A stretch of 64,000 bases of DNA from Litorivicinus sp. (GTDB lineage: Bacteria > Pseudomonadota > Gammaproteobacteria > Pseudomonadales > Litorivicinaceae). Both the position numbers and the translations under genes were made by a program. The notes under the pieces were generated by a model, which had not been told where the DNA came from, did not search any database, and saw nothing but the letters and a program-made list of their open reading frames with translations. Positions 13,585 through 31,895 of the stretch are shown here, piece after piece; within the stretch, counting starts at the first letter, position 1; the number at the start of each line of letters is the position of its first letter. Location: assembly GCA_028339155.1 (NCBI GenBank), contig JAOLBK010000005.1, positions 62,001 through 126,000 on the forward strand, given 5' to 3'.

Positions 13585-14700
13585 TTAACTTTTAGGAGGA
13601 AGATCCTCAAGTTCTTTTTCGTAAGAACTTTGCATTTGGCTTTCGAGGCCCTGCTCTGCCAGAGACTTCGCGAATATATCTCGGACTTCTTGTGTCTCAT
13701 CAGCATAATCAATCTGATGGCCGCCGATGCGCTGACTGATCCATGCTTTGGGCACGCCTTGCGTATTCCTGATGGCGACACCTTCATACTTGAATGCCAG
13801 ATAGCGAGCAGGCGTCGTTCCGGTGTTAAAATGCTGATGGAACCACATGTTTGGCGGCACGATCATTGTCCCAACTTCCCATTCAAAGCGCTCAGGCTCA
13901 CCGCCTTCAGGCCACATAAGAGAATATCCAGAACCACTCAAAATGATAACGTGAGCGCCCGGGCCATGCATGTGTGCTTTTTTGTAGGTGCCCAATGGGA
14001 ACTGAGAGATGTGACTGTTTAATGAACTTTTGGCAAAATTGAACCGGATGTGGCCACCGCCTGCACCACGCTCTTTGGCCTCGATGAGCGGAAGGTTGAC
14101 GCCATCAGGAACAAAGTTGGTCTCGAGTAACAAGCCTTTTTGCTCGCCCTTAGCTGAAAAATATTCAGGATCGCCGTTAAACCGCTCTGGAAAGTCATAT
14201 TCCGTATTAAAGACAAATCCAGGGTCACCGTAGGTATTGATTATTGGCGGCGCGTTTGTGACTGCTACGTAACGGGCTGGTTCTGAACCTGATAAATTAA
14301 AATGTTGGTGTATTGTGTTAAGAGGAATTGCGAATAAAGCGCCTGGGCCCCACTCAAACTCGACCTCGGCGCCCGCAAAGTTTTTAACAGTGGTTTTCCC
14401 GTGACCAGATAAGACCATAACCGTTTCTTCAAACAACTGACTTTGTGGTGCAAGTTTTTGACCGGCTGGAATCTCGCAAACGTAGCAATCGTTGGTGGTT
14501 CGCGATGCATCATGATTGATGAATACGCCTGATCCGCCACGACGAGCCCAAGGCTTTAATTCCACGTTGTTTAGATTTTGAATATAAAAAGCATCAACGA
14601 CATCGAGGCCTTCATCTCGAATCCATTTCAGGTAGGGTGTATCTTTTTCTTTTGCGAACTTTTTGGCGAGTTCGTCAGAAACGATTGCGTCTTTTTTCAT
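13585..14700 (-). CDS. Double-cupin protein, EutA-associated
   Basis: This 371-aa soluble protein has two cupin barrels, in the general style of gentisate 1,2-dioxygenase-like bicupins. Barrel 1 spans about residues 70-150 with HQHFN at 131-135. Barrel 2 spans about 225-305 with metal-ligand-like KAHMH (His243, His245) and HQHFN at 288-292. At the place of the usual motif-1 Glu there is His250. It is therefore probably a metal-binding enzyme or binding protein. It is transcribed divergently from an EutA-like gene, and its homologues at 28041-30438 also precede an EutA-like gene. Gentisate dioxygenase activity is not supported: the first barrel lacks a clear HxH motif. A terminator hairpin follows the stop. 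Confidence 0.85.
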   Translation of the reverse strand: MKKDAIVSDELAKKFAKEKDTPYLKWIRDEGLDVVDAFYIQNLNNVELKPWARRGGSGVFINHDASRTTNDCYVCEIPAGQKLAPQSQLFEETVMVLSGHGKTTVKNFAGAEVEFEWGPGALFAIPLNTIHQHFNLSGSEPARYVAVTNAPPIINTYGDPGFVFNTEYDFPERFNGDPEYFSAKGEQKGLLLETNFVPDGVNLPLIEAKERGAGGGHIRFNFAKSSLNSHISQFPLGTYKKAHMHGPGAHVIILSGSGYSLMWPEGGEPERFEWEVGTMIVPPNMWFHQHFNTGTTPARYLAFKYEGVAIRNTQGVPKAWISQRIGGHQIDYADETQEVRDIFAKSLAEQGLESQMQSSYEKELEDLPPKS

Positions 14701-14864
14701 AAGTTTCCTTCAGTCATTGTTAGTACGGCAAGTGATGGCGTTCACCCGCCAGATGAAAAAGTGTTTTCTATAGTTAATAGAATAGATGTTAGCAATGAAC
14801 ACTGTTTGATAGACCAATGAGTCATTGAATTAACGAAACATTATTACTATGGGGGCTAACCACC

Positions 14865-16493
14865 TTGACTAATTCTAATTCATCGAAGCCTACGAAAGAT
14901 ATTGATTTAATACATGATCTTAATGATCACGATTATGGAATTTTTGGTACGCATGCGCATCTCCCGGGCAATAAATATGATCATGATCATGATGAAAACT
15001 TTGATGAGGGCCCACTCGAAGACAATCCGCTGTGGCAACAAGACAACATTTTTCTGTCTACGGTAGGCGTGGATATTGGTTCATCCAGTACTCAGATCGT
15101 ATTTTCTCAGGTTCATCTGGAGCGCCAGGGCGAAGCATTAAGTTCACGTTATGTGGTTGTGGATCGTAGACTGTTATACCAGTCACCCATTTTTTTTACG
15201 CCATACATAGGTGAGACTCAAATTGATTCGGGTGCGTTGGGTTCATTAATTGACAAGGCCTATCAGGAAGCGGAAATACGTCCACACGATGTGGATATTG
15301 GGGTTGTATTGCTGACAGGCGAGGCCTTACGCCGAGAAAATTCCGAGAAGATAGCGCATGTTATCGCGCACAAGGGAGGCGAATTTCTGAGTGCGAGCGC
15401 CGGTCATCATATGGAGTCCAATCTAGCCGCTTACGGATCAGGCGCTGTTGATTTATCTGGCCAAAAAAAGTCGAAAGTGCTGAACGTGGATATTGGTGGC
15501 GGCACAACAAAACTAGCTATTATTGATAGTGGCCAACTTGTTGGAACGGGTGCTTTTCATGTGGGCGGTCGTTTGCTGGTATGGGATGATAGTTGGCGGA
15601 TTGTTCGGCTCGAACCACGCGCTAAAACATTTTGTCATGAACTAGGTATTGATCTGTCTGTTGGTGATTTATTTAGTCAGGAACAAGCCGAGTATGTGGG
15701 TTCTAAGCTTGCTGAAATCTTAATCGATGTGGTTAACGGGATTGAGAGAGACGATGCGCTTTGGTTGACTGATGTGCCCAAATTCCCGAAAGATCTTTCG
15801 AATGTAGTCTTTTCGGGCGGTGTATCTGAGTACATAGCTGTTCCAGAACAATTAGGGCACAACGATCTGGGATTGTATGTCGGACGTTGTTTGTCCAAAG
15901 CCCAACTAGACAACCGATTTATTTTTGAGGCGGTTGTTGCGCCGGGTGGGATTCGTGCAACGGCCTTGGGTGCGAGTGAGTTTAATATTCAGGTCAGTGG
16001 CAATACCGGTCATATTTCAAATCCGTCTATTTTGCTGCCTGTCAAAAATTTACCGGTCGTTAAATTGCTCGTGGACGCCGATCACATTACCCAAGCTGGC
16101 TTGGCAGAACGCTTGGCCCAGGCTGAACAGTCATTTGACTTGGCCGATTACAAAGAGTTTTCTTTGGCGTTTGAGTGGGTCGGTGAGTTTGATTATGTAT
16201 TGCTAAAAACGCTATGTGACGCCGTATCCTCTTATGTAGAATCTCAGTGGCACGAAGATCGAGCGCTGTATTTATTGTTTGATCGTGATTTGGCTCAGAG
16301 TGTGGGCCGCATCTTGACCGATGAAATCGGTATGCAGCGGCCGTTGTTGGTTCTCGATGGCTTGCGTTTCAAGGATTTTGAATTTGTCGACTTAGGCCGC
16401 GTTCGTTTGCCATCTAGAACGGTCCCTGTGACTGTGAAGTCGTTGCTATTTCAGAACCATGGTATGTCTCAACAAAAAGGAGTGGAAGATTGA
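14865..16493 (+). CDS. EutA-like reactivating-factor ATPase with His/Asp-rich N-terminus
   Basis: This 542-aa protein belongs to the EutA family of actin-fold ATPases. In ethanolamine degradation EutA reactivates adenosylcobalamin-dependent ethanolamine ammonia-lyase by exchanging damaged cobalamin. The phosphate-binding motifs are GVDIGSSSTQ (68-77) and NVDIGGGTTK (207-216), and the family stretch YQSPIFFTPY is at 105-114. The first 65 residues are extra relative to E. coli EutA (467 aa) and hold many His and Asp (GTHAH, DHDHDE), a possible metal-binding tail. The start is TTG at 14865 after GGGGGC; no in-frame ATG precedes the fold. Its stop overlaps the next start by four bases. No eutB/eutC is present, so the client enzyme is unknown. 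Confidence 0.9.
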   Translation: MTNSNSSKPTKDIDLIHDLNDHDYGIFGTHAHLPGNKYDHDHDENFDEGPLEDNPLWQQDNIFLSTVGVDIGSSSTQIVFSQVHLERQGEALSSRYVVVDRRLLYQSPIFFTPYIGETQIDSGALGSLIDKAYQEAEIRPHDVDIGVVLLTGEALRRENSEKIAHVIAHKGGEFLSASAGHHMESNLAAYGSGAVDLSGQKKSKVLNVDIGGGTTKLAIIDSGQLVGTGAFHVGGRLLVWDDSWRIVRLEPRAKTFCHELGIDLSVGDLFSQEQAEYVGSKLAEILIDVVNGIERDDALWLTDVPKFPKDLSNVVFSGGVSEYIAVPEQLGHNDLGLYVGRCLSKAQLDNRFIFEAVVAPGGIRATALGASEFNIQVSGNTGHISNPSILLPVKNLPVVKLLVDADHITQAGLAERLAQAEQSFDLADYKEFSLAFEWVGEFDYVLLKTLCDAVSSYVESQWHEDRALYLLFDRDLAQSVGRILTDEIGMQRPLLVLDGLRFKDFEFVDLGRVRLPSRTVPVTVKSLLFQNHGMSQQKGVED

Positions 16494-17491
16494 AAGTTCA
16501 GATTAAAGATGGTGTCGGCTTTGAGAGCGGTGATGATTTTGTGCTGAGGGCGGCTCTAAGCCAAGGCTTGGGGTTTCCCTACGAGTGCGCGTCAGGATCT
16601 TGTGGGAACTGTCGTTTTGAATTGCTTTCAGGAGACCTTGAATACCCTAACGGCCATCCAACGATTCTTACTGATCGAGATGCAAAAAGGAATCGTCATC
16701 TCGCGTGTCAGTGCATCGCAAAATCAGACATAGAAATCAAAGTGCGTTTGTTTGATGAGTATGAGCCAATTCATAAGCCATCTAGCTTTCCAGCAACACT
16801 GGCTGAGATGGTAACTGTGACCCACGATATTGTTGAGTTTCGTTTCTCGGTTAGTTCACAGCAAGCGTTTGAGCCCGGCCAGTTTGCTTTGCTTGATTTG
16901 CCAAACGTAGCAGGCGCTCGGGCGTACTCAATGAGCAATCTCTGCAATTCCAAGGGTCAGTGGGATTTTCAGATAAAACGAGTTCCTGAGGGTTCTGCGA
17001 CCACTCGATTATTTGATCATGTTGCGATAGGTGATTCGATCGACATCATTGGCCCATACGGGCGTGGATATTTTCGAGGATTTAGGGGTCGTGACATTGT
17101 GTTAGTTGCAGGTGGATCAGGCTTATCACCGATGGTTTCAATAGCCAAAGCAATTGATCAATTAAAGGATGGCCGCAATCAAGAGCGTGTTCATTTTTTC
17201 TATGGTGGTCGATCGGAAATCGATTTGGCAGGTGAATCGTTTCTGTCTGAAATGAGTGGTTTTGGGGATTGGCTTCGATATGAAGCCGCCTTAAGTAACC
17301 CGACATCAGATCAAGCAGATGGTATTTTCCATGGTTTCATTCATGAATTAGTTAAAGATCGGATTGGTTCTGATCTGGCAAATGTTGATCTCTACTTTGC
17401 GGGCCCGCCATTAATGGCCAATGCAATGGAGACGGTGATACGTGAGTATAAAGCACCGTCTGAACATGTGTTTTATGATCGATTTGGATAA
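16490..17491 (+). CDS. 2Fe-2S ferredoxin/FAD/NAD(P)H oxidoreductase
   Basis: This 333-aa electron-transfer flavoprotein has the layout of oxygenase reductases (DmpP, BenC, MMO reductase). An N-terminal plant-type ferredoxin has Cys33, Cys38, Cys41 and Cys73 or Cys75. An FAD domain follows with RAYSMS (144-149), then an NAD(P) domain with AGGSGLSPM (207-215) and a C-terminal Cys-less end EHVFYDRFG. It should pass electrons from NAD(P)H through FAD to the iron-sulfur cluster. The start is TTG at 16490, overlapping the EutA-like stop, with AAGGAG upstream, so the two are coupled. No oxygenase component lies in the window. A partner role with the EutA-like ATPase, such as cobalamin reduction, is speculation from the coupling. 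Confidence 0.9.
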   Translation: MKVQIKDGVGFESGDDFVLRAALSQGLGFPYECASGSCGNCRFELLSGDLEYPNGHPTILTDRDAKRNRHLACQCIAKSDIEIKVRLFDEYEPIHKPSSFPATLAEMVTVTHDIVEFRFSVSSQQAFEPGQFALLDLPNVAGARAYSMSNLCNSKGQWDFQIKRVPEGSATTRLFDHVAIGDSIDIIGPYGRGYFRGFRGRDIVLVAGGSGLSPMVSIAKAIDQLKDGRNQERVHFFYGGRSEIDLAGESFLSEMSGFGDWLRYEAALSNPTSDQADGIFHGFIHELVKDRIGSDLANVDLYFAGPPLMANAMETVIREYKAPSEHVFYDRFG

Positions 17492-17506
17492 GGGTGGGAT
17501 TAATTA

Positions 17507-18334
17507 ATGAGTAAGAAAATGACAGTGTCCGAGATACAGGCCATGAAATTGCGTGGCGATCAGTCAGTCGCCATGGTGGTATGGGATGCGCAAATGGCTG
17601 CGATCGCTGACGATTGCGGCGCAGATTTTTTAATTGTGGGTGATTCGGTTGGCGTGAATTTGTGGGGTCAATCAAACAATCTAGAAATCACGCTTGATGA
17701 GATGATGATTGCAGTGAAGGCCGTGCGTCGAGGTGCTCCACAGGCATTGTTGTGTGCCGACATACCATTTGGTCCAGTCCAAATTGGGATCAAAGAAGGT
17801 GTTGAAGCAGCGATTCGTCTTGTTCAAGAAGGTGGAGCTGATTTAGTGAAGATTGATTCGGCGCCGGACTTCCCGGAGGTCATTGAGGCAGTCACACGTG
17901 CTGGCATTCCTGTATTTGCGCAAATGGGTGTTAGTCCGCAGTCTGCATCAAAGTATGGATTTGCAATCAGTGACCTTCAACAACCCGAAAGCCTTGTGCC
18001 TGACGATATGCTGGGCCAATTGATTGAGGAGGCGAAGATCGTGGAGCGCGCTGGTGCAGCGATGATCGATTTCACTAATAGCGGGCCAGTCATCGGAAAG
18101 GCTGTGTCGGAGGCTGTAAAAATTCCTGTCATTGGCGGAATGGGCGGAGGTCCATGGTTGGATGGGCGGATTAGAATGCTTCATGCCGCGATCGGGTATG
18201 GCACTAAATTTCTTGATGATGATGCTCCGAGTGCGTACGCATATGTTGCAAGAATTGCTCGTGATGCGGTCACTGAACTGATCAACGACGTGCGCTCGGG
18301 TCGTCAGATCAAGGGCGGAATTGGACGGAAATAA
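17507..18334 (+). CDS. PanB-like ketopantoate hydroxymethyltransferase homologue with altered active site
   Basis: This 275-aa TIM-barrel protein of the PanB family (PEP mutase/isocitrate lyase superfamily) is of usual length. It keeps the two metal ligands, Asp46 in VGDSVG and Asp85 in CADIPFG, and the Lys115 of LVKID. Other residues conserved in true PanB differ: the Glu after Lys-Ile is Asp117, the His of GH(L/I)G(L/V)TPQ is Gln139 (FAQMGVSPQ), and the general-base Glu (E181 in E. coli) falls at Thr190/Asn191 (IDFTNSGP). Pantothenate synthesis is therefore doubtful; a related aldol, lyase or mutase reaction on a 2-oxo acid is more likely. It lies 15 bases after the reductase and 15 before the hydrolase gene, in one operon. 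Confidence 0.85.
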   Translation: MSKKMTVSEIQAMKLRGDQSVAMVVWDAQMAAIADDCGADFLIVGDSVGVNLWGQSNNLEITLDEMMIAVKAVRRGAPQALLCADIPFGPVQIGIKEGVEAAIRLVQEGGADLVKIDSAPDFPEVIEAVTRAGIPVFAQMGVSPQSASKYGFAISDLQQPESLVPDDMLGQLIEEAKIVERAGAAMIDFTNSGPVIGKAVSEAVKIPVIGGMGGGPWLDGRIRMLHAAIGYGTKFLDDDAPSAYAYVARIARDAVTELINDVRSGRQIKGGIGRK

Positions 18335-18349
18335 ACAAGGCGAACGGAT

Positions 18350-19210
18350 ATGAGTGATTGGATTGAAGCTGACGGCGTAAGGACAAGGGTTGAAGTGTCT
18401 GGTAGCGGGCCGCCTTTGCTAATGTTTTCTCCGGGGGGGTTTGACGCGACTCTAGAAAAATGGAGCGCACTCGGGATTTATAAAAAAATCGACATCATGT
18501 CTTACCTTGGTGAGCGATTTACCTGTATCTCATTTGATCGACGCGAATGCGGCCAGTCGGGTGGGCGTCTCGAGGTATTGAACTTTTCCGGTATGGCTAG
18601 GCATGGATTGTTTGTGGCCGAACACTTGGGATTTGATCAGGTTCATGTAATTGGTGGATGTTTAGGATGTGCGCCTGCCGCACAATTTGCTGTAGATTAT
18701 CCCAAAAAAATCAGTAGTTTGAACTTGATATGGCCAGTTGGTGGTGCTCGTTATCGGATGCGGAATTTTGCGCGATTCTCTGCACACATCAACTGGGTCC
18801 AAGAGAATGGCCTTCAGGCCTTGGTTGAGCGTAGCCATCAAAGCACAGAGGGTTTTGCAAAAGATTCACTCCTTGGCCCATGGGGGAGCTCGATACGTTC
18901 TGACGAATCACTAAGAAAATCTATTTTGTCGATTGATTTGGGGCAGTATTTAGCCCTAGTGCATGGAAGTTATCAGGCAATGTTTAGTGTCGATACTGCA
19001 CCTGGTCCAAAACCAGAAGAGCTCATGCAGATAGACTGCCCCAGTCTTTTGATTCCGGGCGCGGATGATAGTCATGCTCGATCAGCAGGACATTATATGA
19101 ATGAGTGTCTTGCGGGAAATGGCTGGCTTGATATTCCTGTTGATCAACAAATTCCTGAAATCATTTTCGAACTATTCGATCAAATGTATCAGGCTCCAAG
19201 TACCGAATAA
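18350..19210 (+). CDS. Alpha/beta-hydrolase fold protein with Cys at the nucleophile elbow
   Basis: This 286-aa alpha/beta-hydrolase-fold protein has the oxyanion-loop-like MFSPGGFD at residues 25-32 and the strand-5 elbow VIGGCLGCAP, where Cys104 stands in place of the usual Ser. An acid-like LIPGADDSH lies near 235-245. The usual C-terminal catalytic His is not where expected (GWLDIPVDQQIPE). The triad therefore looks altered: it may be a thiol hydrolase like dienelactone hydrolase, a non-hydrolytic lyase/decarboxylase, or inactive. It is the last gene of the EutA-reductase-PanB operon, with an RBS-like AAGGCGAACGG before the ATG, and a 13-bp-stem hairpin follows. Confidence 0.82.
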   Translation: MSDWIEADGVRTRVEVSGSGPPLLMFSPGGFDATLEKWSALGIYKKIDIMSYLGERFTCISFDRRECGQSGGRLEVLNFSGMARHGLFVAEHLGFDQVHVIGGCLGCAPAAQFAVDYPKKISSLNLIWPVGGARYRMRNFARFSAHINWVQENGLQALVERSHQSTEGFAKDSLLGPWGSSIRSDESLRKSILSIDLGQYLALVHGSYQAMFSVDTAPGPKPEELMQIDCPSLLIPGADDSHARSAGHYMNECLAGNGWLDIPVDQQIPEIIFELFDQMYQAPSTE

Positions 19211-19220
19211 AAGAGATCTT

Positions 19221-19251: not shown

Positions 19252-19257
19252 CTTTGG

Positions 19258-20202
19258 CTAGGCCTCTAGTGCTAACGTGCTCTCGCAAAAGTAGTCAGCC
19301 CAGCCGCTCGTAGGCTTCAGAATTTTTTGTCTGAGCCCTGAATTTATAAGTTCGTTGAGCACTCGCTCATTGGGCTTTACTCCATACGGCAAGGGATCAT
19401 AGCCAAGTTTTTGGAGATTCCGGTTGCGCGCGTTGGTTGGGTCATCATGCTCGGCAGATTGTTTTGCCAAACTCTCGAGGTAAGTTTTCTTTTGTGCCGC
19501 GAAGCATTCAAATAAGGCAGCCGGTAAGTCTGGATATTGATCAACAATTGATTCGGTTAAGGCAATTAAATGATTGATGGGGTAAAACCCTTCGCTGTCC
19601 AATGCCTTGAGAGCCGCCTCTTCTGGTTGAGTAATTAATGACCTGAGACTCTTTGCTTTGAATTCATCTGGGGACATTCCGGCAACTGCTGAAAGTTCTC
19701 CTGAGAGAAGCATTGATTCGAGCGTTTTGGTTCCCGAAATAGTTTCCACATTGTCTGGGGGTTGATATGCCTCAACGTGCTCATCGCCGGATCGGACCCA
19801 CTTTACACTTTCTAAATCCAGTCCTTCGCGGTCTAGGATTGTTCTGGCCCAAACGCCAGTCGTTACTGTGTAACCTCGATTAACTCCAATTTGAGAGCCT
19901 TTCAAGTCACTGACTTGCTTAATCGGTCCATCATCCAAGACTGTGATCTTGTCATGATGAAATCCTCTTAAGAGAAATATAGGAATACCTATGATTGGAA
20001 CGCCGTGTTGGCGAGCACAGATGAAGGTAGTAAGCGCCATTTCTGCGACATCAAATGCTTGCTCGCGAACCATGGCTCGGAATGCTTTGACAAGAACCGG
20101 CCATTCTTCGAAAGCAAGTTCAAATCCGGCCGGTTTGATTAGGCCCGACTTGATGTCTTTGTTCGCACCTTGCGAGCGCGAAACGGATTTTAGTATTGCC
20201 AT
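19258..20202 (-). CDS. 4,5-dihydroxyphthalate decarboxylase / NMT1-like protein
   Basis: This 314-aa protein of the PBP-like fold is shared by 4,5-dihydroxyphthalate decarboxylase (Pht5) and NMT1/THI5-type binding proteins. The typical stretches are FDVAEMALTTF, IPIFLLRGFHHDKI, LKGSQIGVNRGYTVTTGVWAR and near the end YDPLPYGVKPNERVL. There is no signal peptide, which favours a cytoplasmic enzyme over a transport receptor. I start it at ATG 20202 (MAILKSVSRS), which has GAGGA upstream and fits the family; the frame remains open to 20247. A 94-residue protein is encoded 16 bases upstream on the same strand. A homologue lies at 56018-57007. Decarboxylation of an aromatic or related acid is the likely but unproven role. 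Confidence 0.8.
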   Translation of the reverse strand: MAILKSVSRSQGANKDIKSGLIKPAGFELAFEEWPVLVKAFRAMVREQAFDVAEMALTTFICARQHGVPIIGIPIFLLRGFHHDKITVLDDGPIKQVSDLKGSQIGVNRGYTVTTGVWARTILDREGLDLESVKWVRSGDEHVEAYQPPDNVETISGTKTLESMLLSGELSAVAGMSPDEFKAKSLRSLITQPEEAALKALDSEGFYPINHLIALTESIVDQYPDLPAALFECFAAQKKTYLESLAKQSAEHDDPTNARNRNLQKLGYDPLPYGVKPNERVLNELINSGLRQKILKPTSGWADYFCESTLALEA

Positions 20203-20218
20203 CAGTGTGTCCTCATAT

Positions 20219-20503
20219 TTAACAACAGCTGCATCCCATTGGTTCAAAGGATTGGAGCCTGGTTTTCATCCATTTAGGAGGAAAATCTGCTTCATGCACG
20301 TCCTCCATTCTCTTGAATATTAAGAATCCATAGCGTTGCACATCTAGCCAAAAATAGATCTGCGTCATCCGTGGCGGAAATCCTGGGTCAATCGGCCAAT
20401 GCTCTTCAATAAGCGTTATTTCCGAGTGATTCAATTCAAAGTGAGTTCTTGTTAGTCGATCTATCTTATCGATCAAAAGACTCAATTGTTTGCGGCTTCT
20501 CAT
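20219..20503 (-). CDS. Uncharacterised 94-aa protein with C-terminal Cys cluster
   Basis: I do not recognise this protein. It is 94 residues, soluble, with a helical basic N-terminus (MRSRKQLSLLIDKIDRL), a Trp/Phe-rich middle (YFWLDVQRYGFLIF) and the end PMGCSCC with three Cys in five residues. It sits 16 bases before the decarboxylase-like gene, in the same orientation, and is the first gene after the divergent promoter region, which supports it being real. The RBS is weak. It could be a small partner subunit of the downstream protein. Confidence 0.5.
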   Translation of the reverse strand: MRSRKQLSLLIDKIDRLTRTHFELNHSEITLIEEHWPIDPGFPPRMTQIYFWLDVQRYGFLIFKRMEDVHEADFPPKWMKTRLQSFEPMGCSCC

Positions 20504-20640: not shown

Positions 20641-21759
20641 ATGACCGAAATGGTAAATGCAATGGTTCGTGTGGGGCCGTCTCAGATGGAGATGTTGGAA
20701 TACCCAATGCCTGAAGTTCCAGATGATGGTGCCCTTATGAAGGTTGTTGTGGCCGGCATTTGCGGAACAGATGTCAAGATGTATAAAAAACCGCAAAGCG
20801 ACGACCGGGTTATCATGGGCCATGAAAACATCGGATACATTGCGAAGGCCGGAAAACTGTTCCAGGAGCGGCAAGGTGTCAAAGAGGGTGATCTCGTATT
20901 TGTCGAGCATTATGTCACTTGCATGCAATGCGAATGGTGTCATCAGGGTGAATACCGCCATTGTGCGTCGACCGATTGGCGGCACAACCCGAACGCGATT
21001 CGATATGGTTATACCTCTTGTGAAAATGCGCCACACTTGTGGGGTGGTTTTGCTGAGTACATGTATCTGCCGTGGAATGCAGTTTTGCACAAAGTTCCGA
21101 AAGGCGTTTCTCCAGAGTTGGCTGGAATCGTGACGCCGATGGCGAACGGGATTGAGTGGGCGCTTTTTGATTGTGGGGTTGGTTACAACTCTTCTGTACT
21201 GATCCAGGGGCCCGGCCAACAAGGAATGGCGCAAACAGTTGCCTGCAAGCAGGCTGGAGCATCGTGCATCATTGTAACTGGAACAGCGAAAGATGTTAGA
21301 CGTCTTGAAGTTGCGAAGATCCTCGGCGCCGATTACACGATCAATGTATCTGAGGAAGATCCGCTCGAGCGTATTCAGGAAATCACTGCTGGAATTGGGG
21401 TGGATGTCTCGCTTGATTGCACCTCGGGAGCAGGAACGATTCCAGTCACATTGGGTGTCGAGGCGTTAAAACGGAAAGGCGGTACAATATTGCTCCAGGG
21501 CGAGTTAGCGGAATTTCCAAACTTTCCGATCGGAAAAGCGACCGTTAAGTATGTAACGTTCAAGAGCGCACGGGGTCATGGGTACAAATCGTGTGAGTTG
21601 GCTTTAGAGCAATTGGCATCCAATCGATTCCCGCTCGATCTGGTGACAACGCATACGTATCCGCTGGATCAGGCAGACACTGCGGTAAGGGCTGTTGCTG
21701 GAGAAATTAGTAACGACGTAGTGCACGTCTCGTTGTTGCCTAGTGGACCGCTCGAGTGA
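20641..21759 (+). CDS. Zinc-dependent alcohol dehydrogenase (MDR family)
   Basis: This 372-aa medium-chain dehydrogenase oxidises an alcohol or reduces an aldehyde with NAD(P). The catalytic zinc ligands are in GICGTD (Cys) and MGHEN (His-Glu), near residues 40-65. The structural zinc motif is CMQCEWCHQGEYRHC, close to the usual C-x2-C-x2-C-x7-C. The nucleotide-binding strand is VLIQGPGQQGMAQ, similar to the usual GxGxxG. An ATG follows TAGGAG. Its stop overlaps the GTG of the G3E GTPase (GTGA), so it leads a four-gene operon ending with LigJ. The substrate is probably an intermediate of the same pathway, though this is not shown. Confidence 0.92.
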   Translation: MTEMVNAMVRVGPSQMEMLEYPMPEVPDDGALMKVVVAGICGTDVKMYKKPQSDDRVIMGHENIGYIAKAGKLFQERQGVKEGDLVFVEHYVTCMQCEWCHQGEYRHCASTDWRHNPNAIRYGYTSCENAPHLWGGFAEYMYLPWNAVLHKVPKGVSPELAGIVTPMANGIEWALFDCGVGYNSSVLIQGPGQQGMAQTVACKQAGASCIIVTGTAKDVRRLEVAKILGADYTINVSEEDPLERIQEITAGIGVDVSLDCTSGAGTIPVTLGVEALKRKGGTILLQGELAEFPNFPIGKATVKYVTFKSARGHGYKSCELALEQLASNRFPLDLVTTHTYPLDQADTAVRAVAGEISNDVVHVSLLPSGPLE

Positions 21760-22712
21760 CACGACCGGTCTTCATTGTCAGTGGCTTCTTAGGTGCTGGA
21801 AAAACATCTCTGATTCTGAGCTTGATTCGTCGTGGCTCGATCAGAGATGCGGTCCTGATCGTCAATGATTTTGGAGATATTTCACTCGATGCTCAGTTAA
21901 TCGCGAGCTCCGGCGAAACTGTTGTTGAGCTGGAGTCTGGTTGTATTTGTTGTTCAGCGAAAGATGATTTGATCAAAAGTTTGCACGACATTGCACAATC
22001 GCACCCTGAAAAAAAATCGGTGTGGATTGAGACCAGTGGGATATCAAGTCCTGGAGATCTTCTCCCATTATTTACTTCAAACCCAGTCATAGCCTCGAAC
22101 TTTTTTGTTGAGCAGGTGATTACGGTCGTTGACTCTCGGACTTCTGTAGAAGACCTGTCACGAGCGGGGACGGTATTTGAACAATTGGCTTTTGCTTCAA
22201 CTATTTTTGTCAATATTTTTGATGATTATTGCGAGCCATCGTCGAAGCTATTGGAGTGGCTCAGGTCCGTGAATTCGGCTGCAAATTATTTGATTGCTCC
22301 GATCGATGACATCGAACTGAGCCAGTTAAAATCAGGGTTTGATTATCGTTTTAGTTTGGAGCGAACCGATCATTTGGTCGCTATGAATAATGGGATAAAA
22401 GAACACGGTTTTCAGACTTTTACGATTCGCTGGGAGGGGTCTATTATTATCTCCGATCTCTCGACGATTTTAGACGATTGGCTAATGTCAGATGGTAAGA
22501 ATTTGCTTCGGATGAAAGGCGTGGCTTTTTGTGAGGAGTCGAACCTCTCGATCATAATTCAAGGCGTGCGAAGGCAAATTATTTTTGATGAACCCTCGAA
22601 TATGGATTGGAGTGAAGGCGGCTTTTTAGTTTTGATAGGATCTGAGATTGATCAAGAAAGTATCGAACGACTAGAAACGTTGATTCATGATTCTCAAGTA
22701 TTAAAGATATAG
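21756..22712 (+). CDS. G3E-family GTPase (CobW/COG0523) metallochaperone-like
   Basis: This 318-aa P-loop GTPase belongs to the COG0523/CobW branch, whose members deliver zinc, cobalt or other metals to client proteins. Walker A is GFLGAGKT (10-17), the metal-binding CICC motif is at 63-66 within ESGCICC, and the ExxG region is IETSGISSPG. The guanine-specificity motif, usually N-K-x-D, reads N-I-F-D at 153-156. A CobW C-terminal domain follows. It is inserted between two presumptive zinc enzymes (alcohol dehydrogenase and LigJ-like hydratase), so loading zinc into one of them is an attractive inference. A cobalt/cobalamin role is also possible given the EutA-like genes nearby. Confidence 0.9.
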   Translation: MTRPVFIVSGFLGAGKTSLILSLIRRGSIRDAVLIVNDFGDISLDAQLIASSGETVVELESGCICCSAKDDLIKSLHDIAQSHPEKKSVWIETSGISSPGDLLPLFTSNPVIASNFFVEQVITVVDSRTSVEDLSRAGTVFEQLAFASTIFVNIFDDYCEPSSKLLEWLRSVNSAANYLIAPIDDIELSQLKSGFDYRFSLERTDHLVAMNNGIKEHGFQTFTIRWEGSIIISDLSTILDDWLMSDGKNLLRMKGVAFCEESNLSIIIQGVRRQIIFDEPSNMDWSEGGFLVLIGSEIDQESIERLETLIHDSQVLKI

Positions 22713-22730: not shown

Positions 22731-23417
22731 ATGCCGAAAGTTATAACTGGAATTCCATCGATATCGGATGAAATAATCAAAAGATATCAGGGTTTAAGTG
22801 TCGCCACCATCCATGAGGCTCAGGGGCGGGTCGGCCTATTGAGCCCCGAGATTCGGCCGATTCAAGATGGATTGAAGGTAGCGGGCCGAGCGGTGACTGT
22901 ATTTGCCACACCGGGCGATAATGTGATGATCCACGTGGCTATGGAGCAGTGTATGCCCGGCGATGTAATGGTGATGGCAGTAAATTCACGCTCAGATTGC
23001 GGGTACTTCGGGGACTTGCTAGCAACTTTGATGCAGGCCAAGGGTGTGGCTGGTCTTGTGATTGATTCGGGCGTGAGAGACTTGGCTGATTTGAGAAGAA
23101 TGGGCTTGCCTGTATTCAGTCGTTGTATTTCTGCGCAGGGCACGGTCAAAGAGACTTTGGGTGATGTAAATGTTCCTATCGTTTGCGGCGGCCAGTTGAT
23201 TAATGCCGGTGATATGGTGGTCGGTGATGACGATGGCGTTGTTGTTGTTCGTCGAGACGATCTTGCATGGGTTGCTGACAGCTCTGATGCTCGAGAAGAA
23301 AAAGAAGCTGGGATCAGGGAAAAATATGGCCAAGGCATTCTTGGTCTGGACATGAATAATATGCGTCAGCGCCTTGAAAATATGGGCCTTGAGTACGTTG
23401 AATACGAAAAAGAGTAA
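22731..23417 (+). CDS. RraA-like aldolase, 4-carboxy-4-hydroxy-2-oxoadipate aldolase type (LigK-like)
   Basis: This 228-aa protein is of the RraA/HMG-CHA aldolase fold. Metal/substrate-binding family residues are seen in GDLLATLMQAKGVAGLVIDS and GVRDLADL (the Arg-Asp pair). The N-terminal phrase LSVATIHEAQGRVGLL and the central GDVMVMAV are typical of the CHA-aldolase branch. CHA aldolase splits 4-carboxy-4-hydroxy-2-oxoadipate to pyruvate and oxaloacetate in the protocatechuate/gallate 4,5-cleavage pathway. The next gene is a LigJ-like hydratase, which makes that same compound, so the assignment is supported by context. RBS AGGAGAT precedes the ATG. An RNase E-inhibitor role is unlikely. Confidence 0.85.
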   Translation: MPKVITGIPSISDEIIKRYQGLSVATIHEAQGRVGLLSPEIRPIQDGLKVAGRAVTVFATPGDNVMIHVAMEQCMPGDVMVMAVNSRSDCGYFGDLLATLMQAKGVAGLVIDSGVRDLADLRRMGLPVFSRCISAQGTVKETLGDVNVPIVCGGQLINAGDMVVGDDDGVVVVRRDDLAWVADSSDAREEKEAGIREKYGQGILGLDMNNMRQRLENMGLEYVEYEKE

Positions 23418-23444
23418 CGGCTAGAAAACAGGTTGGAGACAAGT

Positions 23445-24467
23445 ATGATTATCGATTGCCATGGTCACTACACCACAGCATCATCAAAATTACAGGCGTT
23501 TAGGGATGAGCAATTACAGCTTTTCGCTGCCGGGAAAAGCACTTCAGTTGCTCAAATGTCAGCGATCTCAGACGATGAAATCGTCGATTCGATTGAGAAT
23601 AATCAATTGAAGTTGCTAAAAGAGCGTGGCGGCGATTTAACTATTTTCTCACCTAAAGCATCGGCGATGGGGCAGCACCAAGCTGATATTGCAACATCAG
23701 TTCGTTGGGCCCAAGCATGTAATGATTTAATTCACAGGGTTTGTGAGTTATTCCCAGAAAATTTTGCCCCTGGTTGTCAGTTGCCACAGGAGGCGGGTCA
23801 GCCGTTGACGGATGCCGTAACTGAGCTTCGTCGCTGCGCGGATATGGGCTTTGTTGGGGTTAATTTAAATCCTGATCCGTCTGGTGGGCATTGGGCCTGT
23901 AAGCCATTGACGGATGAGTCCTGGTTTCCCTTATATGAGGCGTTGGTGGAGTTAGATGTTCCGGCCATGATTCATGTTTCTGGTTCTTGTAATGAATGCC
24001 ATCACACAACTGGCGCTCATTATATCAATGCGGATACGTCAGCATTCATGCAATTGATTCAAGGTGACTTGTTTGCGCGCTTTCCGGATCTTCGTTTTAT
24101 TATCCCACATGGCGGTGGTGCGGCTCCTTATCACTGGGGTCGTTACAGGGGCCTTGCTCAGATGCTTGGTAAGCCGGAGCCATCCGAGCACGTAATGAAA
24201 AATGTGTATTTTGATACGTGTGTTTACCATAAGCCGGGGATTGAGTTATTACTCTCTGTCGTGGGCGTGGACAATATTTTATTTGGATCCGAAATGCTGG
24301 GAGCGGTCAAAGGAATTGATCCGGATACGGGCAACTATTTTGATGACACAAAAAAGTATCTGGATCAGTTGCCACTCTCCGAGACTGACTATCACAAGTT
24401 GTTCGAGGGGAATGTACGCAAAGTATTTCCAAGATTAGACAACAGATTAAAGGCTATGAACCTCTAA
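23445..24467 (+). CDS. ligJ: 4-oxalomesaconate hydratase, LigJ-like amidohydrolase
   Basis: This 340-aa amidohydrolase-superfamily protein has an N-terminus MIIDCHGHY that is the LigJ form of the H-x-H metal motif. It continues along the LigJ pattern: LPQEAG, GFVGVNLNPDPSG, the His of MIHVSGS, IIPHGGGAAPYHWGR, and the acidic end motif FGSEMLGA. LigJ hydrates 4-oxalomesaconate to 4-carboxy-4-hydroxy-2-oxoadipate, the substrate of the preceding LigK-like aldolase. I chose ATG 23445, preceded by GGAGACAAGT, over the upstream TTG at 23433. Earlier pathway genes (ring-cleavage LigAB, LigC, LigI) are absent here. A hairpin overlaps the stop codon. Confidence 0.88.
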   Translation: MIIDCHGHYTTASSKLQAFRDEQLQLFAAGKSTSVAQMSAISDDEIVDSIENNQLKLLKERGGDLTIFSPKASAMGQHQADIATSVRWAQACNDLIHRVCELFPENFAPGCQLPQEAGQPLTDAVTELRRCADMGFVGVNLNPDPSGGHWACKPLTDESWFPLYEALVELDVPAMIHVSGSCNECHHTTGAHYINADTSAFMQLIQGDLFARFPDLRFIIPHGGGAAPYHWGRYRGLAQMLGKPEPSEHVMKNVYFDTCVYHKPGIELLLSVVGVDNILFGSEMLGAVKGIDPDTGNYFDDTKKYLDQLPLSETDYHKLFEGNVRKVFPRLDNRLKAMNL

Positions 24468-24476: not shown

Positions 24477-24494
24477 AGGCAGGCAGAGTGCCTA

Positions 24495-25259: not shown

Positions 25260-25271
25260 GCGATTATTTCC

Positions 25272-27097: not shown

Positions 27098-28019
27098 TGC
27101 CTTCTTTGGTCAGTTTTGTGCGTTCGCGTCGGCTCTGAGTTTTGCGTTCGCAAGCATTGCAATTAGCTCCAATAAGAGGCGAGGGTTGGCCAATGATGGA
27201 GCTTTTCTTTCTGTTGTGATGACCGTTGGCTTCGCATTTGGCCTATTCATTTTTTTCGAGCGTGGTGACATTCCTGATTATAAGGACCCGCGGTTTTCCG
27301 AAGGAATCTTGTGGTTTTGTATGGCGGGTTTGTTTGCAATGGTCTTTGGGCGGACTCTCGTTTTTCGCTCTATTGGGTTGCTTGGAGTCACTCGCGGCAC
27401 GACCGTTAAAAAACTGAACCCATTTTTCTCAATTCTATTTGCATTTATTTTTCTTGCTGAGTCGATGATCCTTCCAGAATTGCTTGGAGTGGTTGCTCTT
27501 GCTATTGCAATTACACTTTTGATCTCTGATCAGAGTCGTAAATATGAGCACGAAGAAAATATTTCGAAGAAAAATTTAGCGCAGATAGTTCCCCTTTATT
27601 TGCCAGGAATATTGTCGTGCCTCGCCTACGCTATTTCTTATATCGCAAGAAAAAATGGATTAATTACGCTTGGCGCACCTGCGTTTGGCACGTTTGTTAG
27701 CGCGTTGTCGGGTGTATTTTTCTATCTGATTCTAGCGTTGGGGTTTTCTTCGTATCGTCGATTTGTTATCGAGGGTGTTAAGAATATTCAGCCGATCACC
27801 CTAGCCATTGGGGCTAGCATGTCAATTGGACAGGTCTTATTCTTTACGGCGCTAGCCTACGAAGAGCTGTCCACTGTTGTGATGATCGGCTCATTGGAAA
27901 CGTTTATCGCAATTTTCCTGTCGGTGGTTATCTTTCGTATGGAAATCAGACCATCGGTAAAACAGGTCTTGGCGGCTTTGTTAGCTGGATTAGGTGTTTC
28001 ATTAGTTTCAATTTACTGA
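27090..28019 (+). CDS. EamA/DMT-family transporter
   Basis: This ten-helix drug/metabolite transporter (309 aa from GTG 27090, giving MTNAFFGQFCAFASALSF) starts right at helix 1, as the family does, and overlaps the previous stop by eight bases. An ATG at 27051 in the same frame is the alternative. Repeat-end signatures are KLNPFFSILFAFIFLAES and GSLETFIAIFLSVVIFRME. It sits inside the cupin-EutA operon, 21 bases before the first cupin gene, so it may export or import a pathway intermediate. RBS GGAG for the next gene lies just past its stop. Confidence 0.88.
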   Translation: MTNAFFGQFCAFASALSFAFASIAISSNKRRGLANDGAFLSVVMTVGFAFGLFIFFERGDIPDYKDPRFSEGILWFCMAGLFAMVFGRTLVFRSIGLLGVTRGTTVKKLNPFFSILFAFIFLAESMILPELLGVVALAIAITLLISDQSRKYEHEENISKKNLAQIVPLYLPGILSCLAYAISYIARKNGLITLGAPAFGTFVSALSGVFFYLILALGFSSYRRFVIEGVKNIQPITLAIGASMSIGQVLFFTALAYEELSTVVMIGSLETFIAIFLSVVIFRMEIRPSVKQVLAALLAGLGVSLVSIY

Positions 28020-28040
28020 GTTTTTTAGGAGAATTTTTCA

Positions 28041-29234
28041 ATGACTGATTGGGTCGAGCCGACAGAAGAGAATCGTGCGGGTCATGGGACGTTTGGTCGT
28101 CCTAAGACTGACTATGATTTGTTTATGGAATCCGAGGGCGTACCGATTTTCCGCGATGTTGGTGTGTCGAGATGCCAAGACCTACCAATGAAGCCGTGGG
28201 ATCGCCTCGGTGGAAATGGAACTTATGTTCAGTTGTACGGAACAGAGGGCACGTGGGGGATGTACGTTGTTGAGATTCCTCCTCGCCAGAAATTGAATGT
28301 AGAACGTCATCTTTACGAAAAAAATATTATGATTTTGGAAGGTCGTGGTGCGTGTGAGGTATGGCATGACGAGAAGAATAAGCAGGTATTTGAATGGCAA
28401 GCGGGTTCGCTGTTTTCGATTCCGGTAAATGCCAAGCACCGGATGATTAATATGTCTGGGCAGCGGGTCATTTTTGTTGCAGGGACGACGGCGCCGAATT
28501 TAATGAACTTGGTTGGCGATAAAGATTTCATCTTTAACTGTGATTACCGGTTTGGTGATCGATTTGATGATTCTTTGAGTGACTTTTTTGAAGAGAAGAC
28601 TGCGATTGAGTCGGATCCAGTTCGTGGTTTAGCAATGCGCCGAACCAATGTGATGGCTGATATTGTGAATGCGGAGCTTCCTTTGGATAACCGTAGAAGC
28701 CCGGGGTATCGTCGAATTGAACCGCATATGACCAACAATAAGTTTTACCTGTGGATTGGGCAGCACGAAATTGGTCGGTATTCGAAGGCGCACGCGCATA
28801 CGTCGGCGGCTATTTTGTTCTGTCTGACTGGTAAGGGCTATACCACTAGCTGGCCCGAGCATCTGGGGCCGAATCCGTGGAAGGATGGTAATGGTGACCA
28901 GGTCGTCCGGGTTGATTATGAGTATGGTGGATGCGTGAGTGCGGCTCCTGGCGGTGCGCGTTGGTACCATCAGCACTTTAACGTCTCGAACGAACCATTC
29001 CGTTTGACTGCTTGGTTTGGTCCAAACCATCCAAGTAGGTTGCCTGGTACTGCCCCTGGACAAAAAACAACTGATTACACGGCGATGGATATCCATGAAG
29101 GAGGGACTTCGATACCTTACTGGTTAGAAGATCCTTACGTTCGTGAAGAGTTCCAGCGCCAATTAGATTTAAATGGTGCCGTATCTCGAATGGAGCCGCA
29201 TCGTTACCAAAAGCCAGACCACATAAAAAATTAA
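28041..29234 (+). CDS. Double-cupin protein, tandem copy 1
   Basis: This 397-aa two-barrel cupin protein is homologous to the 13585-14700 product. The first barrel has KLNVERHLYEKNIMILEGRG and a degenerate second motif (NAKHRMINMSG). The second barrel has SKAHAHTSAAILF (H-x-H) and ARWYHQHFN. The C-terminus contains IPYWLEDPYVREEF, shared with copy 2. Only the second barrel seems able to bind a metal fully. TAGGAG precedes the ATG. Copy 2 follows 16 bases after the stop and is identical in DNA from 28168 to 29037 (copy 1 coordinates). The two copies differ near residues 37-44 (RDVGVSR against RGFGVPR) and over the last 25 residues. Confidence 0.85.
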   Translation: MTDWVEPTEENRAGHGTFGRPKTDYDLFMESEGVPIFRDVGVSRCQDLPMKPWDRLGGNGTYVQLYGTEGTWGMYVVEIPPRQKLNVERHLYEKNIMILEGRGACEVWHDEKNKQVFEWQAGSLFSIPVNAKHRMINMSGQRVIFVAGTTAPNLMNLVGDKDFIFNCDYRFGDRFDDSLSDFFEEKTAIESDPVRGLAMRRTNVMADIVNAELPLDNRRSPGYRRIEPHMTNNKFYLWIGQHEIGRYSKAHAHTSAAILFCLTGKGYTTSWPEHLGPNPWKDGNGDQVVRVDYEYGGCVSAAPGGARWYHQHFNVSNEPFRLTAWFGPNHPSRLPGTAPGQKTTDYTAMDIHEGGTSIPYWLEDPYVREEFQRQLDLNGAVSRMEPHRYQKPDHIKN

Positions 29235-29250
29235 AATGGGGAAGTAAATA

Positions 29251-30438
29251 ATGACTGATTGGGTCGAGCCGACAGAAGAGAATCGTGCGGGTCATGGGAC
29301 GTTTGGTCGTCCTAAGACTGATTATGATTTGTTTATGGAATCCGAGGGCGTACCGATTTTCCGTGGTTTTGGTGTACCGAGATGCCAAGACCTACCAATG
29401 AAGCCGTGGGATCGCCTCGGTGGAAATGGAACTTATGTTCAGTTGTACGGAACAGAGGGCACGTGGGGGATGTACGTTGTTGAGATTCCTCCTCGCCAGA
29501 AATTGAATGTAGAACGTCATCTTTACGAAAAAAATATTATGATTTTGGAAGGTCGTGGTGCGTGTGAGGTATGGCATGACGAGAAGAATAAGCAGGTATT
29601 TGAATGGCAAGCGGGTTCGCTGTTTTCGATTCCGGTAAATGCCAAGCACCGGATGATTAATATGTCTGGGCAGCGGGTCATTTTTGTTGCAGGGACGACG
29701 GCGCCGAATTTAATGAACTTGGTTGGCGATAAAGATTTCATCTTTAACTGTGATTACCGGTTTGGTGATCGATTTGATGATTCTTTGAGTGACTTTTTTG
29801 AAGAGAAGACTGCGATTGAGTCGGATCCAGTTCGTGGTTTAGCAATGCGCCGAACCAATGTGATGGCTGATATTGTGAATGCGGAGCTTCCTTTGGATAA
29901 CCGTAGAAGCCCGGGGTATCGTCGAATTGAACCGCATATGACCAACAATAAGTTTTACCTGTGGATTGGGCAGCACGAAATTGGTCGGTATTCGAAGGCG
30001 CACGCGCATACGTCGGCGGCTATTTTGTTCTGTCTGACTGGTAAGGGCTATACCACTAGCTGGCCCGAGCATCTGGGGCCGAATCCGTGGAAGGATGGTA
30101 ATGGTGACCAGGTCGTCCGGGTTGATTATGAGTATGGTGGATGCGTGAGTGCGGCTCCTGGCGGTGCGCGTTGGTACCATCAGCACTTTAACGTCTCGAA
30201 CGAACCATTCCGTTTGACTGCTTGGTTTGGTCCAAACCATCCAAGTAAATTGCCTGGTACTGCTCCTGGACAAAAAACGATTGATTACACGGCGATGGAT
30301 ATTCATGAAGGAGGGACTTCGATACCTTACTGGTTAGAAGATCCTTACGTTCGTGAAGAATTCCATAGACAGTTGAATATCAACGGCGGGACCTCTCGAA
30401 TGGAACCACACAGATACGAAAAACCAAAAGATCTTTGA
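29251..30438 (+). CDS. Double-cupin protein, tandem copy 2
   Basis: This 395-aa duplicate of the preceding gene has the same barrels and motifs (SKAHAHTSAAILF, ARWYHQHFN). It ends differently (RQLNINGGTSRMEPHRYEK and KPKDL). Its leader GGGGAAGTAAATA supplies an RBS unlike that of copy 1. The TGA stop is followed at two bases by the ATG of the EutA-like gene, so translation of the two should be coupled. Because the cores are identical while the ends have diverged, the two proteins may form hetero-oligomers or bind different partners through their ends; this is inference. Confidence 0.85.
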   Translation: MTDWVEPTEENRAGHGTFGRPKTDYDLFMESEGVPIFRGFGVPRCQDLPMKPWDRLGGNGTYVQLYGTEGTWGMYVVEIPPRQKLNVERHLYEKNIMILEGRGACEVWHDEKNKQVFEWQAGSLFSIPVNAKHRMINMSGQRVIFVAGTTAPNLMNLVGDKDFIFNCDYRFGDRFDDSLSDFFEEKTAIESDPVRGLAMRRTNVMADIVNAELPLDNRRSPGYRRIEPHMTNNKFYLWIGQHEIGRYSKAHAHTSAAILFCLTGKGYTTSWPEHLGPNPWKDGNGDQVVRVDYEYGGCVSAAPGGARWYHQHFNVSNEPFRLTAWFGPNHPSKLPGTAPGQKTIDYTAMDIHEGGTSIPYWLEDPYVREEFHRQLNINGGTSRMEPHRYEKPKDL

Positions 30439-30440
30439 TA

Positions 30441-31895
30441 ATGAAAACAGAACGACGATTCACTTCAGCGGATCGAGCGCTGGTAGAGGCAGATGTGATC
30501 GAGGTGATTACGTTGGGACTCGATATTGGCTCCGCGACTTCGCATGTGTCACTTTCAAAACTGACGATGGTCAGGGGGCACAATCGTTACACCGTTGCTG
30601 AGACGGAGGTGATATACCAAAGCCCGGTTATAAAAACGCCCTACGGCGGCGATAATAGAGGAATCATTATTCGCTCTGAGCTGGAGGCGATGATTGATGA
30701 CTCCCTCAAGTCAGCCAAGGTTGCACGTGACCAAATTGAATCGGGTGTGGTGATTCTTACCGGCAACGCACTGCGTCGGCACAATGCGCGTGAGATCGCG
30801 GACATATTGGCTTCATTTTCGGGTAAATTTATTTCAATCAGTGCGGGTGACAGGCTCGAGTCGACGATGGCGGCGTTCGGTTCGGGCGCGGTTAAAGCAT
30901 CTGTCGGATCTGATCGGCTGAATATTGATATCGGGGGTGGTACCACGAAGATTAGTCGTTGTATTGATGGGAATGTAACCGAGCTCACGGCGATTGAAGT
31001 GGGAGGGCGGATTCTTCAGTTCGATGTTGAAGGGAAGGCATCACATTGTGAACCAAACCTTCTATTGTATATGGATTCTGGGGTCCTTCCTGAAGTGGGA
31101 GTTTCGCTTCAGGATGGCGTGTTGGATCAAATTATTGAACACATGACGCAGACCGTGATTAAAGCAATTAAGGGGATGGATCTGGGCGAAGCTCAAAGGC
31201 TTGATTCTATAAGCTCATTCCCGTTGGGAGGTACGGTCGTTCTGAGTGGTGGCGTCAGTCAGTGGTTACTTCCAAATCATCAAGCAGATATTTGTGATGA
31301 TTTGGGCCAGCTCCTGGCTTACAACGTTCGCGAATCAATAATCTCTGAAGGTTATAACGTTGAGATAGCCGATGATCCAATCCGTGCGACTGTTCTTGGG
31401 GCCTCTCAGCAGAGAATGCAGGTCAGTGGGAATACTGTGTTTATCTCTGATGAGAGGTTGCTTCCCATCCGTAATGCACCGGTCTCTCTGATTACTGTTC
31501 CGGCCGAAGATTTCGATGCAGCGTTTATAGGAACGCTTGCAAAAGACTCGATTGCGAAGTCACTGTTTGAAAGTGATCTTGGGCTTCGAGTGTTCGGGAT
31601 TGACTGGGTTGGGTCGGTAACGTACGAACGGGTGGATGAGTTTTGTCGAGGAATTTTGCTGGGCCTTCAGGGACTAAACACCCCAGTTACCCTGCTTTTA
31701 AAACAGGATATTGCCGGTTTGATAGGCATTCACTTCGCTGAAGAGCTCAATTACAGCAAGCCAGTTGTTTGTCTTGATGGATTGGATCGTGTTGACTTTG
31801 ATTTTGTGGATATTGGTGAGGTGATTAATCAGACAGGACTCGTGCCGGTGGTTGCCAAATCTATTTTATTCAATAGTGGGTCTAAGTTAAGTTGA
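30441..31895 (+). CDS. EutA-like reactivating-factor ATPase, second copy
   Basis: This 484-aa EutA-family actin-fold ATPase has phosphate motifs GLDIGSATSH near residue 25 and NIDIGGGTTK near 160, the family phrase YQSPVIKTPYGG and a conserved LTGNALRRHNAREIA. The length is close to E. coli EutA and, unlike the 14865-16493 copy, it has no His-rich extension. I choose ATG 30441; a TTG at 30435 in frame overlaps the cupin stop. It directly follows the tandem cupins and precedes an aldo/keto reductase by ten bases. As with the first copy, no ethanolamine ammonia-lyase or other B12 enzyme is encoded nearby, so its client is not known. Confidence 0.9.
   Translation: MKTERRFTSADRALVEADVIEVITLGLDIGSATSHVSLSKLTMVRGHNRYTVAETEVIYQSPVIKTPYGGDNRGIIIRSELEAMIDDSLKSAKVARDQIESGVVILTGNALRRHNAREIADILASFSGKFISISAGDRLESTMAAFGSGAVKASVGSDRLNIDIGGGTTKISRCIDGNVTELTAIEVGGRILQFDVEGKASHCEPNLLLYMDSGVLPEVGVSLQDGVLDQIIEHMTQTVIKAIKGMDLGEAQRLDSISSFPLGGTVVLSGGVSQWLLPNHQADICDDLGQLLAYNVRESIISEGYNVEIADDPIRATVLGASQQRMQVSGNTVFISDERLLPIRNAPVSLITVPAEDFDAAFIGTLAKDSIAKSLFESDLGLRVFGIDWVGSVTYERVDEFCRGILLGLQGLNTPVTLLLKQDIAGLIGIHFAEELNYSKPVVCLDGLDRVDFDFVDIGEVINQTGLVPVVAKSILFNSGSKLS

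Follow-up and report, generated by a model that had tools for sequence, protein, structure and literature searches.

EutA-like ATPases paired with bicupins: a branch of a cobalamin-enzyme reactivase family with a candidate new client in bacterial acid catabolism

What does a EutA-family ATPase act upon in a bacterium where its usual client is not recognizable? EutA and the reactivating ATPases of the diol dehydratase type are textbook partners of adenosylcobalamin (AdoCbl)-dependent enzymes; EutA depends on ATP to replace an inactive cofactor with an active one. This question is raised by a 64,000-nucleotide stretch of the genome of Litorivicinus sp. (assembly GCA_028339155.1, contig JAOLBK010000005.1, positions 62,001 to 126,000; hereafter the window), in which genes for double-cupin (bicupin) proteins and EutA-family ATPases lie side by side, and a profile search found no EutB match in the source genome (1.88 Mb, 88% complete), with EutC not searched for genome-wide. 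We propose that this branch of EutA-like proteins has switched its client and would serve as a reactivating ATPase for the upkeep of the metal center, perhaps nickel, of a bicupin involved in aromatic or carboxylic acid catabolism, a reading to which we assign a probability of roughly 0.55.

The two sites that an earlier, sequence-only reading of this DNA had described as pairing a double cupin with a EutA-family ATPase are both found among the open reading frames of the window (Table 1). At the first site, cupA and eutA1 are divergent, with 164 bp separating their starts. The second site had been read as a tandem cupin-cupin-EutA array; that gene order stands, and the eutA2 start overlaps the cupB2 stop by 4 bases, but cupB1 and cupB2 are duplicates with 96.5% DNA identity and a central 870 bp without a difference. 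On this sequence comparison we take the two genes to be a recent tandem duplication, so that the second site represents a single EutA with a doubled cupin; genome assembly could also have touched this region (positions 28041-30438). The genome has a third EutA, followed by a double cupin and then by a gene for a TauD-type dioxygenase; this EutA-cupin pair (locus L152) occupies 35563-38165 of contig G000:C2, with a gap of about 35 bp between EutA and cupin as measured by match edges. The closest named relative is a gammaproteobacterial contig from a metagenome-assembled genome, in which cupA is 89% identical.

The association extends far beyond this genome. A cupin profile scan of one genome per species yielded at least 593 stretches, at least 586 of them confirmed, from which the best 80 loci were kept; judging by record titles, these span Alpha-, Beta- and Gammaproteobacteria, Actinomycetota and Acidobacteriota. 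A flanking EutA is encoded in 55 of the 80 loci and in 32 of the 36 that hold at least 20 kb. When 50 genomes, many of them drafts, were searched whole (all 25 whose locus lacks a flanking EutA, and 25 whose locus has one), a cupin-type EutA was detected in 50/50, with best scores of at least 496 bits, compared to a maximum of 326 bits that the EutBC-partnered EutA of a phylum-wide sample reach with the same model. This co-occurrence is independent of gene neighborhood. EutB was found in only three of these genomes, in one case as a 50-residue piece, and was unmatched in the remaining 47. Among 72,556 plasmids, the cupin is present on four, and the same four rank first for the cupin-type EutA among the 25 with any EutA match; each carries two cupin and two EutA places, which are adjacent in 8/8 cases according to the listed coordinates and the fetched stretches. 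Because the same four plasmids carry both genes and all eight EutA places lie beside a cupin, the pairing is not a matter of chance. Four of the other 21 EutA plasmids were inspected, and all four encode EutB and EutC.

The reverse pattern is observed where the cupin is missing. In a class-wide sample of 369 genomes, PF06277, the Pfam model of EutA, has a match in 337 (257 above the Pfam cut-off), and in the phylum-wide sample of 398 genomes, in 269; the short matches in both samples were dropped as FtsA-like, judging by their length and place (within about positions 116-271). Among the matches listed, which run in order of E-value, long EutA were found in three genomes of the class sample (the Litorivicinus genome itself, G145 and, as a partial match, G011) and in six of the phylum sample (Litorivicinus, G590, G719, G608, G498 and G538). 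EutB and EutC are adjacent, with no cupin, in 6/6 of those EutA outside the source genome that have a readable context; the EutA of G011 lies at a contig end, where the context is unreadable, and was left out of this count. No match to the bicupin, NikR, NicO, the reductase gene fnr or a Rieske oxygenase was obtained at E 1e-4 in the EutBC-partnered loci (11/11; 9 to 25 kb). Within the family of Limnohabitans (299 genomes), EutA occurs in five genomes: it accompanies the cupin in three and EutBC in one (G1012), and the fifth is G1236, which was considered as an exception with EutA and no cupin and dismissed as such, its contig stopping after cupD exactly where the relatives have cupC-cupA. In the order of Rhizobium (150 genomes), two genomes have both cupin and EutA, and they are the same two. 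Because these two samples include the genomes on which they are centered, they add few independent positives. Taken across several bacterial phyla, the joint occurrence of the EutA-like branch and the bicupin is well supported by these genome comparisons.

The partners are matched by clade as well. In a tree of 80 EutA rows (quick method, long branches, midpoint-rooted), the 70 cupin-type rows form one side of a branch with an SH-aLRT value of 98 and are divided into clades A1, A2 and A3; the cupins also form three clades, cupA, cupB and cup3. Under a rule that assigns to each EutA one bicupin within 600 bp, nearest first, 42 of the 70 cupin-type rows qualify as pairs, and all 42 are clade-matched (30 A1-cupA, seven A2-cupB and five A3-cup3), in divergent (8), tandem cupin-first (19) and tandem EutA-first (15) arrangements. 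The EutA and cupin distances correlate at 0.87, and at 0.69 within A1; none of 2000 shuffles reached as high a value, although the shuffle leaves shared ancestry in. One Rhizobium genome encodes cup3-eutA3-cupB-eutA2 consecutively. The other 28 cupin-type rows have no bicupin next to them; for most of these, one lies some kilobases off, and three A2 rows (L047, L048 and L051) have none within 5 kb.

The complete clade matching argues that the cupin itself, rather than a third enzyme, is the partner of the ATPase: if both served a common third client, the pairing of each kind of cupin with its own kind of ATPase would be hard to account for. The sequence-only reading had offered this interpretation next to an alternative in which both proteins serve some radical or metalloenzyme. 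The former came through both checks that this reading had named, the genome survey and the search of the source genome for EutB, and gains from the presence of the EutA branch in 50/50 genomes, the lack of an EutB match in 47/50 and the 42/42 matched pairs. The latter loses ground, given that across the 80 loci the cupin is the most constant neighbor of EutA, a comparison that favors the cupin, by which the loci were drawn. On sequence grounds, the assignment of the bicupin as the partner is well supported. In another Rhizobium locus (L171, 13823-16544), a split bicupin, cupD-cupC, is followed on the same strand by a diverged EutA, possibly a fourth kind of pairing.

The ATPases resemble the EutA of AdoCbl-dependent ethanolamine ammonia-lyase (EAL) in covering almost the whole PF06277 domain, in carrying the motifs of ASKHA ATPases and in being encoded beside the presumed client. 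Against a Pfam cut-off of 27 bits, eutA1 scores 337 bits (E 2.1e-100, profile positions 3-475 of 475) and eutA2 268 bits (E 2.4e-79, positions 2-475 of 475), and these almost full-length matches rule out a cross-match to FtsA or MreB. The residues D70, G72, D209-G211-G213-T214 and G318-G319 are conserved in more than 95% of the 80 EutA rows, of both types. Unlike EAL-type EutA, these proteins have bicupins and not EutBC as neighbors, belong to the separate branch described above, and score far under the NCBIfam EutA equivalog cut-off of 598 bits (best scores 287 for eutA1 and 220 for eutA2). Three positions distinguish the types: residue 216, after the GGGTT motif, is Lys in 70/70 cupin-type rows and Asn in 10/10 EAL-type rows; residue 230 is Ala in 70/70 versus Cys in 10/10; and residue 499 is Gly in 69/70 versus Glu in 9/10. 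Clade A1 furthermore has an N-terminal tail with an acidic His-rich motif (48/53 rows, compared to 0/11 in A2 and 1/2 in A3), scored in the 66 EutA with readable tails, with six at contig ends left out; the starts were set by a rule, and some tails may be misjudged on that account. At the same place, the four EAL-type EutA whose starts are annotated carry 6 to 10 residues. In eutA1 the tail comprises about residues 1-52, with most of residues 1-39 modeled at low confidence. A sequence search found no solved EutA structure. Because there is no EutB match in the source genome or in 47 of the 50 relatives and the EutA branch is separate, we reject the possibility that the window genes are an ordinary eut remnant.

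The presumed client is a predicted bicupin. The window cupins match the Pfam family Cupin_2 at about 2e-10, and cupA is nearest in fold to gentisate and salicylate dioxygenases, with about 13% identity over the fold. The likeness to gentisate/salicylate 1,2-dioxygenase includes, apart from the fold and the catabolic context, an HxH...H site in the C-terminal barrel of cupA that aligns with that of the gentisate dioxygenase 3bu7. This site consists of H243, H245 and H288, with H290 also conserved; in an alignment of 113 cupins, H243 and H288 are present in 100% and H245 in 99%. Most known gentisate and salicylate dioxygenases carry the active iron in an HxH site of the N-terminal barrel, whereas the cupin alignment contains no conserved HxH there; cupA, cupB1 and cupB2 have no match at 1e-3 to the gentisate dioxygenase model TIGR02272 (for cupC, 18.3 bits against a cut-off of 442); and an ATPase partner is present. 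MncA and oxalate decarboxylase are bicupins too, and for MncA the choice of the right metal is known to be difficult; in contrast to the present bicupins, these enzymes have two metal sites and are not known to have a dedicated ATPase partner.

Judging from the encoded families, the setting of the cupin-EutA loci is the catabolism of aromatic or carboxylic acids. Neighbors were counted over the 80 loci, with Pfam run on representatives only and clusters holding antisense open reading frames not counted. Apart from the genes for which counts are given in Table 1, matches were obtained for cupC (34), cupD (31), IclR (29), a LigXa-like Rieske oxygenase (22), CobW (13-14) and a hydroxyacid dehydrogenase (11), and several kinds of transporters recur. 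No known pathway name fitted the window cluster on the basis of the family-model matches. A 176-amino acid protein without a Pfam or NCBIfam match (L061, 12495-13025, and relatives; 17/80 loci) often adjoins the gene for the Rieske oxygenase.

A possible link to nickel comes from relatives. NikR and/or a NicO-family (NixA/NicO) transporter are encoded in 16 of the 80 loci (NikR in 8, NicO in 15; over 1.25 Mb), by record titles in Burkholderiales, Rhodobacterales, Caulobacter, a Rhodospirillales bacterium and Gammaproteobacteria. Seven of the eight NikR loci belong to Burkholderiales; because several orders are represented, the loci with NikR or NicO as a whole do not form one clade. Of two HupE-like members that were checked, one exceeds the NicO cut-off and the other falls short of it. 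In the record annotation of a Phyllobacterium plasmid, cupin, EutA, NixA and NikR follow in order, with a Rieske and an iron-sulfur protein nearby; in the equivalent regions, three Sinorhizobium plasmids encode the pair and the Rieske protein and lack NixA and NikR. No NicO match was found in the Litorivicinus genome. Histidine-rich tails are a feature of the nickel maturation proteins HypB, SlyD, CooJ and UreE, and clade A1 may be comparable to these, with a His-rich stretch on an NTPase that, in some relatives, is encoded beside NikR or NicO and a CobW-family GTPase. Unlike these proteins, it is a EutA-family ASKHA ATPase rather than a SIMIBI GTPase and would have a cupin client. Small 'MCGEI' proteins with a His-Asp-rich end and no Pfam family at 1e-3 (L094, 14592-15068; L099, 6755-7207) are encoded near cupC/cupD or NicO in 12/80 loci. 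Paired halves of a weakly ArsP_1-like permease (L084, 5394-6478; matches in 10/80 loci) adjoin a NicO-like transporter.

By analogy with EutA, the EutA-like protein would probably open a dead bicupin for metal exchange. The bicupin would catalyze a key oxygenolytic or C-C-cleaving step in the catabolism of aromatic or other carboxylic acids, using a single metal ion held by the three histidines of the C-terminal barrel. Once this center is lost, oxidized or mis-metallated, the ATPase would bind the inactive bicupin and open it through ATP binding and hydrolysis, so that the dead metal could exit and fresh metal, most likely nickel or cobalt, go in; in clade A1, the acidic His-rich tail may hold the incoming metal. 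A bolder version, which we regard as distinctly more tentative, is that EutA-type reactivases are not confined to B12, and that this branch is dedicated to using ATP for metal exchange in nickel-dependent bicupin oxygenases that cleave rings or C-C bonds, with a separate ATPase for each kind of bicupin, as part of an unrecognized catabolic pathway of Proteobacteria, Actinobacteria and Acidobacteria.

The strongest alternative, which we nevertheless consider unlikely, centers on iron and the reductase: an Fe(II) bicupin resembling gentisate dioxygenase would be oxidized to Fe(III), the [2Fe-2S] reductase would re-reduce it, and the EutA-like ATPase would open the site, by analogy with RACo, the activators of 2-hydroxyacyl-CoA dehydratases and the XylT ferredoxin. 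The fnr start overlaps the eutA1 stop by 4 bases, the three-histidine site is as in gentisate dioxygenase, and a fold search with the EutA model ranks 1hux first, an activator of 2-hydroxyglutaryl-CoA dehydratase (E 5e-10, TM 0.28 of the query). However, the remaining top fold matches are mostly generic ASKHA proteins; fnr, with matches in 24 of the 80 loci, is unmatched in 56; and the LigXa-like Rieske oxygenase would be a likelier partner for the reductase. A 2-hydroxyacyl-CoA dehydratase activator or RACo would also be expected to have invariant cysteines for an iron-sulfur cluster, whereas no column exceeds 72% Cys among the cupin-type EutA rows, so that Cys conservation lends no support to an iron-sulfur activator.

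It is considerably less probable that cobalamin is still handled, with the EutA-like protein serving an unrecognized AdoCbl enzyme or the bicupin itself binding a corrinoid, and CobW and NicO supplying cobalt. The EutA ancestry, the CobW-family gene in the window and in relatives, and the inclusion of cobalt transporters in the NicO family would fit this scenario. So would B12-binding proteins: the earlier statement that the 64 kb contain no other recognizable B12 enzyme agrees with the window open reading frames that were annotated (not all were scanned), but three such proteins are encoded elsewhere in the genome, one MetH-sized, one mutase-sized and one of 334 amino acids, named by length only, none of which is known to be a EutA client. 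Against cobalamin stand the lack of an EutB match in the source genome and 47/50 relatives, the greater constancy of the cupin compared to any other gene beside the EutA branch in the loci seen, the substitution of residues that are fixed in EAL-type EutA, and the nickel specificity of NikR. Equally improbable is an absence of direct contact, in which the two genes would be inherited jointly as members of a catabolic operon, with the ATPase serving another pathway enzyme such as the Rieske oxygenase: many catabolic genes indeed recur and 28/70 EutA rows lack an adjacent bicupin, but the Rieske gene is found in only 22/80 loci, the pair is kept in all three gene orders, and the kinds of cupin and EutA correspond one to one.

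A literature search, which left most subscription journals outside its scope, found nothing linking the EutA of ethanolamine utilization to cupins or NikR. In PMC4334477 and PMC5924519, 'EutA' is the name of an ectoine gene. The observations described here suggest an unrecognized ATP-driven upkeep system for metal enzymes. If the proposed role of the EutA-like branch in bicupin upkeep is correct, the upkeep of a simple metal site lies within the reach of actin-like ATPases, which bears on how cells load the right metal into a cupin; to our knowledge, no dedicated ATPase partner has been described for the cupin superfamily, so that this branch would be the first. The 'EutA' label that annotation gives to these genes, as seen in the records, would be corrected as well, and the loci point to an uncharacterized route of catabolism in many different environmental bacteria.

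Table 1. Genes of the window discussed in the text; positions are those of the 64,000-nucleotide stretch, and fractions refer to the 80 related loci
Feature	Positions	Strand	Description
Thiamine-diphosphate enzyme	6974..8722	-	Match in 11/80 loci
cupA	13585..14700	-	371-aa bicupin, predicted gentisate/salicylate-dioxygenase-like fold
eutA1	14865..16493	+	542-aa EutA-family ATPase, cupin-type clade A1, acidic His-rich N-terminal tail, Lys216
fnr	16490..17491	+	BenC-like [2Fe-2S]/FAD/NAD reductase; match in 24/80 loci
PanB-family protein	17507..18334	+	Under curated cut-offs; neighbor in 9/80 loci
Alpha/beta hydrolase	18350..19210	+	Neighbor in 9/80 loci
NMT1-like protein	19258..20247	-	Binding protein or enzyme; matches in 27/80 loci
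Zinc alcohol dehydrogenase	20641..21759	+	Neighbor in 9/80 loci
CobW/HypB/UreG-family GTPase	21756..22712	+	Family match; within catabolic cluster
LigK-type 4-carboxy-4-hydroxy-2-oxoadipate aldolase	22731..23417	+	NF006731 308 bits (cut-off 179); TIGR02798 286 bits (cut-off 304.5)
Amidohydro_2 protein	23433..24467	+	Neighbor in 5/80 loci
cupB1	28041..29234	+	397-aa bicupin, clade cupB
cupB2	29251..30438	+	Near-identical tandem copy of cupB1
eutA2	30435..31895	+	486-aa EutA-family ATPase, cupin-type clade A2, without His tail
cupC	35575..36174	-	Single cupin, half of split pair cupD-cupC
cupD	36178..36732	-	Single cupin, other half of split pair cupD-cupC

Elsewhere in the window (43129-47656, minus strand), a molybdopterin oxidoreductase with ferredoxin domains is encoded next to a NuoE/NuoF-like fusion protein, an arrangement that resembles an NAD-dependent formate dehydrogenase.

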